NCBI GenBank assembly: GCA_009780995.1
Contig: WQYY01000003.1
Location: 1 to 34,945, forward strand
DNA from: Desulfuromonadales bacterium
Lineage (GTDB): Bacteria > Desulfobacterota > Desulfuromonadia > Geobacterales > DSM-12255
Direction of reading: 5' to 3'
Length of the DNA: 34,945 bases
Part shown: positions 1,810 to 26,819 of the stretch, piece by piece
How positions within the stretch are numbered: the stretch's first letter is position 1
Layout of the letters: each line of letters begins with the position of its first letter
Translations under genes and position numbers: made by a program
Notes under the pieces: generated by a model
The model's input: the letters and a program-made list of their open reading frames with translations, nothing else
Told to the model about the DNA's origin: nothing
Database searches by the model: none

Positions 1810-1866
1810 GTAGGGGCGGCATTCTGCCGCCCGTGTTATCGGGCGATTGGGGACAGTCGCCCCTAC
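1810..1866. repeat. GTAGGGGCG/CGCCCCTAC multi-hairpin repeat, copy A
   Basis: gtaggggcg...cgcccctac outer 9-bp stem enclosing gcggcattctgccgc, gcccgtgttatcgggc and gcgatt..agtcgc. Confidence 0.85.
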
Positions 1867-6629: not shown

Positions 6630-7087
6630 TGACTTCGGCTTTTGGTCATATGCTGCGGCTGTAGGGGCGCGATTTATAGCACCCGATGGTATAACCGACT
6701 GATTGCATCTTTAGCCTGTCAGCTCAGGTTATACCTGAGCTAATCTATTTCCGACTGATCTATATTTTAGCCCGGCAGGGCTCAATTTTCATAACCGCAG
6801 GTCAACGACCTGCGGCTGAATAATGCAATCATACTCCTGCCTGAAAGGTAGTACCAGGTAGTTCTGCCTTCCAGGCAGATATGTTTTTTATCGTATCTCC
6901 GCAGGCCAACGGCCTGCGGTTATGAAGATCTGGCAACTTCGTTGCCCTTTCTCCAACGATGGCAATAATTCTTTTGCGCTTTTCGTGGCTTTCGCGGCTG
7001 TTGTTTGCTGTTGCGGGCGCACAATGTGCGCCCCTACGCTTCACACTCCAAACTCCACACTGACTTACAGCCAAAAGCCTGTGCCAT
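6630..7087. repeat. Composite intergenic hairpin block bounded by inward copies of the GGCTTTTGG/CCAAAAGCC motif
   Basis: Contains gtaggggcgcgatttatagcacccgat, agctcaggttatacctgagct, agcccggcagggct, ccgcaggtcaacgacctgcgg, ccgcaggccaacggcctgcgg, tttcgcgg tandem, gggcgcacaatgtgcgcccctac, cacactccaaactccacac. Confidence 0.75.
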
Positions 7088-9091: not shown

Positions 9092-9120
9092 GTAGGGGCG
9101 CGATTTATCGCGCCCGATGA
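9092..9120. repeat. GTAGGGGCG family repeat (copy E)
   Basis: gtaggggcgcgatttatcgcgcccgatga. Confidence 0.7.
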
Positions 9121-9396: not shown

Positions 9397-9420
9397 TAGC
9401 TCAGGTAATACCTAAGCTTA
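9397..9420. repeat. TAGCTCAGGTAATACCTAAGCTTA palindromic repeat
   Basis: tagctcaggtaatacctaagctta; related copies at 6721-6741, 18326-18340 and 23726-23750. Confidence 0.65.
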
Positions 9421-9489
9421 CCTATTCTCGACCAATTTGTTTTCTGTCACTTACAAAGTAGGGGACACACACCGAATGTCCCGAAATAC

Positions 9490-9637
9490 TTTGCCCATAG
9501 GGCATTCATATCAATAGAAAATAACATACACGATACCAGTAGTCCGTAGGACTTTAACAAAATCAAAACGTTGAAGTCCTACGGACTACATGAGTATGGT
9601 ACGATTTCCCTATTGATATGAATGCCCTACGGGCAAA
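9490..9637. repeat. Nested palindromic element with CATATCAATAG arms
   Basis: tttgcccatagggcattcatatcaatag ... ctattgatatgaatgccctacgggcaaa outer arms; gtagtccgtaggactttaac ... gttgaagtcctacggactac inner arms. Confidence 0.85.
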
Positions 9638-9688
9638 TCAAAAACCATCTTCACTATCCACGCTGGATTATGACCAAAAGCCGAAGTC

Positions 9689-18444: not shown

Positions 18445-18497
18445 GTAGGGGCGCACAGTGTGCGCCAGATTATTGGGCGGTCAATAACCGCCCCTAC
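18445..18497. repeat. GTAGGGGCG family multi-hairpin (copy F)
   Basis: gtaggggcgcacagtgtgcgccagattattgggcggtcaataaccgcccctac. Confidence 0.8.
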
Positions 18498-20472: not shown

Positions 20473-20567
20473 AAGTAGTTAACCTTTCATAATATTATGT
20501 GGCACAGGCTTTTGGCCATATACAGCAACTGTATGGGCGCACAGTGAGCGCCCGTGTGTTGGTCTTT

Positions 20568-20610
20568 AACCACCCTGCCCTACGGGCACCCCTCGCAAGT
20601 CGGGGAATTT
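20568..20610 (-). repeat. Solo relative of the DUF559-element 43-bp terminal repeat
   Basis: aaccaccctgccctacgggcacccctcgcaagtcggggaattt versus aaccaccccgcccttcgggcacccctccacaggaggggaattt at 14232-14274; same length. Confidence 0.75.
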
Positions 20611-20638: not shown

Positions 20639-20696
20639 GTAGGGGCGGCAACCTGCCGCCCGTGTTGTTTATCGGGCGCACACTGTGCGCCCCTAC
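20639..20696. repeat. GTAGGGGCG family multi-hairpin (copy H)
   Basis: gtaggggcggcaacctgccgcccgtgttgtttatcgggcgcacactgtgcgcccctac; followed by ttttcgcgcttttcgcgtgtttcgcggtt. Confidence 0.85.
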
Positions 20697-26761: not shown

Positions 26762-26819
26762 GTAGGGGCAGCATCTTGCCGCCCGTATTGTCTGGCGGGC
26801 GACTACAAGTCGCCCCTAC
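26762..26819. repeat. GTAGGGGCG family multi-hairpin (copy I)
   Basis: gtaggggcagcatcttgccgcccgtattgtctggcgggcgactacaagtcgcccctac; followed by tttttcgtgcttttcatgtttttcgcggttgaag. Confidence 0.85.

Follow-up and report, generated by a model that had tools for sequence, protein, structure and literature searches.

GTAG-headed REPs are known as a superfamily (Di Nocera et al., 2013, PMC3733652), and the hairpins analysed here resemble these elements and REPINs (Bertels & Rainey, 2011, PMC3116915) in their terminal GTAG and short palindrome, and also in their inverted dimers, intergenic placement and high copy number. They differ from the described GTAG REPs in that many discrete inner-stem classes occur on one nearly constant outer stem within one genome, and the string GTAGGGG is absent from the main text of that report (PMC3733652). 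The TnpAREP/TnpAY1 subclass 2.4, which corresponds to Bertels group 4, is known to hold REPs in frame within the tnpAREP gene, generally inserted between HuH and Y, and to have REPs of two types, of which the double-foot REP (GTAG...CTAC on one hairpin) is one (Quentin et al., 2018, PMC6006769). The RAYTs of the present study share with this subclass the NH[IFV]H HUH, WQ and YIxNNP motifs, the in-frame REP insertions and the spread across various phyla, and an assignment to the subclass 2.4 kind of TnpAREP is the best explanation of their sequences. They differ from it in a second conserved insertion site before HuH, so that a pair of REPs brackets HuH, and in the matched stem class of this pair and a covarying, putative recognition helix. 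Escherichia coli TnpAREP (4er8) has the same fold and motifs, and K82 on its helix alpha3 contacts REP base C27 in the crystal; in the E. coli REP a bulge is required and the upper stem is non-specific (PMC8266576), whereas the stems here are perfect and the inner stem is apparently a tag. By analogy with IS200/IS605 elements (IS608, ISDra2), the RAYTs would likewise be transposases of the Y1 HUH kind with single-stranded hairpin substrates, though they are nearer to TnpAREP in sequence and fold, and no IS-like ends were identified around the RAYT genes. In the literature searched (open-access main texts), no account was found of a bracketing REP pair with matched class or of a helix–stem code.

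The window, i.e. the whole stretch of 34,945 nucleotides that was analysed, held copies at all nine places named in the sequence-only reading (1810, 1926, 6661, 7015, 9092, 18445, 20531, 20639 and 26762), with 11 intact or near-intact REP units and decayed copies at 6661 and 20531. The plan of a unit is an unpaired GTAG followed by one hairpin of 19–22 nt, GGGCG-X1X2X3-loop-X3'X2'X1'-CGCCC, and units are mostly 23 nt long, the rest 24–26 nt. The REPIN, or inverted pair of REP units, at 1810–1866 folds as two hairpins (z −5.1) and consists of a 23-nt unit of the GCA class on the plus strand (1810–1832) and a 26-nt unit on the minus strand (1841–1866), with the 8-nt linker GTGTTATC between 1832 and 1841. 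Pattern matches, pairing and folding delimited three further REPINs, at 18445–18497 (CAC unit, 18445–18467, plus; GTT unit, 18475–18497, minus), 20639–20696 (GCA unit, 20639–20661, plus; CAC unit, 20674–20696, minus) and 26762–26819 (GCA unit with one stem mismatch, 26762–26784, plus; ACT unit, 26797–26819, minus), and a decayed REPIN, GTATGGGCGCACAGTGAGCGCCC ... ACCACCCTGCCCTAC, was recognized by sequence at 20531–20583. Lone units of the CAC class lie on the minus strand at 1927–1949 (GTAGGGGCGCACAGTGTGCGCCC; pattern match and fold) and 7015–7037 (GTAGGGGCGCACATTGTGCGCCC; pattern match). On the plus strand are a decayed unit of the CGA class at 6661–6684 (GTAGGGGCGCGATTTATAGCACCC; sequence) and a lone 24-nt unit of the CGA class at 9092–9115 (GTAGGGGCGCGATTTATCGCGCCC; pattern match and fold), which shares its class with the REPs inside and surrounding the C43 RAYT.

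In DNA folding, the REPINs at 1810, 18445 and 20639 formed two independent hairpins with GTAG unpaired; the first hairpin of the 18445 copy was shorter by one pair, with A as the final base, and an end-to-end fold was also possible for the 26762 copy. The conserved outer stem that the sequence-only reading had described is thus to be replaced by the base of each separate hairpin together with an unpaired GTAG, since GTAG/CTAC is no outer stem, and the complementarity of GTAGGGGCG and CGCCCCTAC follows from the inverted arrangement of the units in a copy. Each full copy comprises two inverted units, not up to three inner hairpins as had been proposed. The suggestion that half-copies are modular units held, single REP units occurring alone as well as in inverted pairs, and a folded single strand is the likely working form of the hairpins.

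The pattern matched 142 times on the forward and 203 times on the reverse strand of the 1.72 Mb assembly, with some pairs read more than once in overlapping matches, and the reversed-pattern control matched 0 times. Far from a handful of palindromes, 338 GTAG-headed hairpins were found in 1.245 Mb, compared to 13–29 for unrelated control tetranucleotide heads; the 266 hairpins with a TAGG head are GTAG-headed units one base out of register. CTAC-headed hairpins numbered 24 in the same 1.245 Mb, showing no excess; the dispersed units are apparently not of the double-foot type, and the canonical REP type of subclass 2.4 fits. Inverted unit pairs not more than 320 nt apart numbered 98. Only 39 of 324 units (12%) lay within open reading frames of at least 150 aa, which make up 79% of the sequence, and the units were mainly extragenic, often 3' of genes or between convergent genes. 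The hairpins are GTAG-type REPs, present alone or as inverted pairs (REPINs). Deliberate mixing of classes in short-spacer pairs was considered and rejected (3 of 61 pairs homotypic versus 6.8 by pooled shuffle, P 0.067), close homotypic pairs in other genomes also contradicting such a rule, and a reading-phase constraint on unit length was ruled out by the 24-nt units in the C43 RAYT.

The window holds other repeats as well. The repeat GACTTCGGCTTTTGGTCATATG occurs at window positions 6636, 9666, 18531 and 20506, often adjoining REPs; its core was found in 102 copies in 1.245 Mb (up to 2 mismatches), 65 of which had a REP unit no more than 300 nt away versus about 10% expected, and it may be the outer part of a composite element. 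Other palindromes (AGCTCAGGTTATACCTGAGCT, CCGCAGGTCAACGACCTGCGG) lie in window positions 6715–6925 and 9398–9640, and nested inverted repeats surround AGTCCGTAGGACTT at about 9538–9593. Relatives of the same order (G004, G008, G015, G022, G035 and others) carry 26-nt GTAG hairpins (GTAGGGGCGGCCCCATGTGGCCGCCC) with a differently built tip, the pattern search in these relatives being blind to 23-nt units.

When only the outer stem was demanded, the three inner pairs were Watson–Crick in 135, 134 and 139 of 140 23-nt units. Among 34 distinct units, 47 cells were changed on both sides, compared to 16.5 ± 3.4 after shuffling (0/500), and the covariation score was 0.418 versus 0.107 ± 0.020; the covariation was lost when the partner position was slid. 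All three inner pairs covaried and the outer GGGCG was almost invariant, so the paired-arm variation among copies noticed earlier is real. The copies formed discrete stem classes with few intermediates, the same classes recurred in unrelated phyla, and particular classes were carried inside RAYT genes; the covariation therefore mostly represents divergence between RAYT-linked REP lineages. The covarying stems and the folded strand agree with the earlier idea of selection on, or propagation through, a folded form, but the variation is not mainly compensatory drift within the genome.

A search for a cognate REP-associated, IS200-like transposase, which the sequence-only reading had recommended, was successful in this genome: Y1 transposases were present, and a protein search added further copies and fragments. 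The nearest PDB sequence to the RAYT was 4er8 (E 2.9e-12), which was also the top fold match (E 5.9e-8; AlphaFold model pLDDT 82), and the best NCBIfam match was REP_Tyr_transpos, at 56.5 and 64.2 bits, below the cut-off of 80. The C1 RAYT has the motifs PNHVH, IWQ and YIENNP, and the C71 RAYT has YIDENP, a variant of YIxNNP. The RAYTs of this genome carry REPs of the CAC (C1 and C49), AAC (C71), GCA (C40) and 24-nt CGA (C43) classes; none was found for the ATC, ACT, 26-nt ACC and 24-nt GAT classes in the own-genome stretches examined. Few relatives occurred in phages, plasmids and IMG/VR, and in a sampled search at strict E-values RAYTs were present in 10 of 399 genomes of one phylum and 5 of 399 of another, suggesting a sporadic distribution. 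Next to a REP of class GGCCATTGGCCGTCC, a class with 22 copies in the stretches read, lies a short Y1 transposase that is of a different type (L001, G000:C97, 464–1087).

The C1 RAYT contains an in-frame inverted REP pair around HUH, read as VGAHSVRP ... PNHVH ... GRTLCAPT (L003 and L004 readings). Among 79 RAYT genes from named genomes (Bacillota, Burkholderiales, Synergistaceae, Dehalococcoidales, Spirochaetes, a deltaproteobacterium and others), most held REP1 and REP2 at two conserved sites and a few were without one or both; REP1 usually started about 102–150 nt upstream of HUH, REP2 usually ended about 56–86 nt past the HUH start, and the internal REPs kept the RAYT reading frame. In 52 of 65 genes REP1 and REP2 belonged to one class, where 6.3 would be expected and none of 20,000 shuffles gave more than 17; in a further set of 32 genes the two agreed in 26. 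That both internal REPs are of one stem class is apparently new, as is the tendency of a genome's dispersed REPs toward the class of its RAYT. Counts of dispersed units were made for four classes across 36 genomes, and after subtraction of internal copies RAYT-matched genome–class cells held a mean of 17.3 units and unmatched cells 2.2 (0/20,000 label shuffles), 88 of 118 unmatched cells being zero. The one-sided p values for individual classes were 0.025 (CAC), 0.071 (AAC), 1.8e-6 (GCA) and 0.001 (ACC); the CAC and AAC counts alone separated matched from unmatched genomes weakly, and one GAT-class genome with 85 CAC units was a counter-example. In some RAYTs (L057, L063 and L077) REP1 is read in another frame, as RGAQCAPD instead of VGAHSVRP, and tandem REP-like peptides occur in L062, L070 and L082. 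The internal site seems to take up REPs repeatedly.

Mutual information with the stem was calculated, and the helix numbered, on RAYT protein columns from which the REP codons had been removed. For X1 it peaked at positions 99, 95 and 102 (z 14.9, 13.6 and 11.1), the next column having z 4.6 and the median being 0.66, and position 103 also stood out for X3 (z 11.6). X1=G went with Arg99 (23/34), X1=A with Gly99 (24/32) and X1=C with Glu99 (9/13), and the association of X1 with residue 99 persisted among 69 sequences under 70% identity. The residues at 95, 99, 102 and 103 gave class signatures: GRSK for GAT (11/13), KGTK for AAC (7/8), KETK for CAC (6/10) and QG[TS]K for ACC (9/13). In the AlphaFold model these four positions lie within one helix, after REP2, and position 99 aligns with E. 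coli K82 (HMMER alignment to 4er8). Between nearest pairs, position 99 differed in 0.79 when X1 was different and in 0.07 when the class was the same, and position 95 in 0.93 and 0.07, respectively, though a difference in X1 also goes with a greater distance between the members of a pair and this comparison alone is not decisive. In a hold-out set, Arg99 went with X1=G in 17:1, compared to 19:17 for other residues (Fisher p 0.0017). The full four-residue class rule, derived from 23-nt classes, was set aside: it held for 4 of 21 cases in the first hold-out, as the REPs of most RAYTs there were 26 nt long and belonged to other classes. Covariation between helix and stem at 95/99/102/103, far above all other columns, is apparently new and suggests a readable matching code between the RAYT helix and the inner stem of the hairpin.

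Considering these results, we regard as probable a model of RAYT-dependent REPs and REPINs in which the helix after REP2 reads the inner stem as a specificity tag. REPs and REPINs would be non-autonomous elements, whose single-stranded GTAG-plus-hairpin substrates would be processed by RAYTs of the same genome. The RAYT genes carry two inverted in-frame copies of their own REP, flanking the catalytic HUH motif; GTAG and the outer stem are the part common to all units, and the three inner base pairs would be the tag, read by helix residues 95, 99, 102 and 103. A RAYT would thereby be matched to its internal REPs and to dispersed REPs with the same tag, and new tags may arise at least partly through replacement of the REP1–HUH–REP2–helix block. 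We infer from the data that helix and inner stem are in direct contact and that mobility continues today, and likewise in what order these events took place.

The closest competitor is an ordinary REP/REPIN system in which the RAYT reads GTAG and the hairpin shape, and the classes match through descent, transfer and gene conversion. The almost constant GTAG and outer stem, the non-specific upper stem in E. coli (PMC8266576) and the C1/C49 tract that is identical over REP2 and the helix, suggesting conversion, all accord with it, but we consider it unlikely, as strong covariation is confined to 95, 99, 102 and 103 on one helix face and does not extend to 96, 98 and 100. Moreover, the helix is predicted by the distal REP1 (z 18) at least as well as by the adjacent REP2 (z 14–16), indicating that mere linkage is insufficient, and the stem class changes 47 times on the 81 tips of the RAYT tree, making descent alone a weak explanation; this protein tree is poorly resolved, with 10 of 80 inner branches starred and too few supported pairs for a formal phylogenetic test. 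That the hairpins are terminators or mRNA-stabilizing 3' hairpins under host selection, unrelated to transposition, would suit their often lying at the 3' ends of genes or between two convergent ones, yet appears very improbable: the window contains no Rfam family, a terminator would not need the conserved unpaired GTAG, and the exact classes recur within RAYT genes and in unrelated phyla. Still less credible are cruciform palindromes perfected by template switching in replication without protein recognition, which would account for the very few unpaired inner cells but leave GTAG, the outer GGGCG, the placement inside RAYTs and the helix covariation unexplained.

With regard to the replacement of the block under the tag-reading model, the C40 and C1 RAYT genes have 82% and 87% DNA identity in their outer parts, and the middle part, which starts with REP1 and extends some 50 nt beyond REP2, is replaced; the class (GCA for CAC) and the helix change together with it, and the C40 RAYT retains a decayed CAC REP before its new REP1. 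Both REPs and the helix of this RAYT have been replaced together, which is apparently new. Across REP2 and the helix the C49 and C1 RAYTs share a tract of 100% identity, compared to about 82% elsewhere. Outside any RAYT gene, C2:23168–23347 is a copy of the C71 REP1–HUH–REP2 segment (88%), starting within a few bases of GTAG and ending at CTAC with unrelated flanks, and its frame break makes it read as a moved, non-coding copy; the movement would have been from the C71 RAYT segment. In the 69-bp GCA REPINs the spacers resemble TTTCATTGATTACAATCGC and have TCATTGATTAC in common with the codons that immediately precede REP2 of the C49 RAYT, a short stretch which suggests that these REPINs may be deletion derivatives. 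A general origin of REPINs from RAYT segments was dropped, the C2 copy alone being clean: the C8/C68 copies also share the right flank, the C43-derived match was weak, and tblastn yielded no match for the non-RAYT pairs that were retrieved from other genomes. It is conceivable, though we hold this tentatively and with somewhat more doubt than belief, that the RAYT gene holds a self-referential cassette of its own hairpins and the reading helix, which would be exchanged as a block and create REP families, and that some REPINs would be excised copies of the stretch between the two internal REPs.

REPs and RAYTs are widespread. The helix–stem code may make directly testable both how the match between a transposase and its REPs is maintained and how new REP families start, and for the 23-nt classes at least it would predict REP preference from the sequence of a RAYT.
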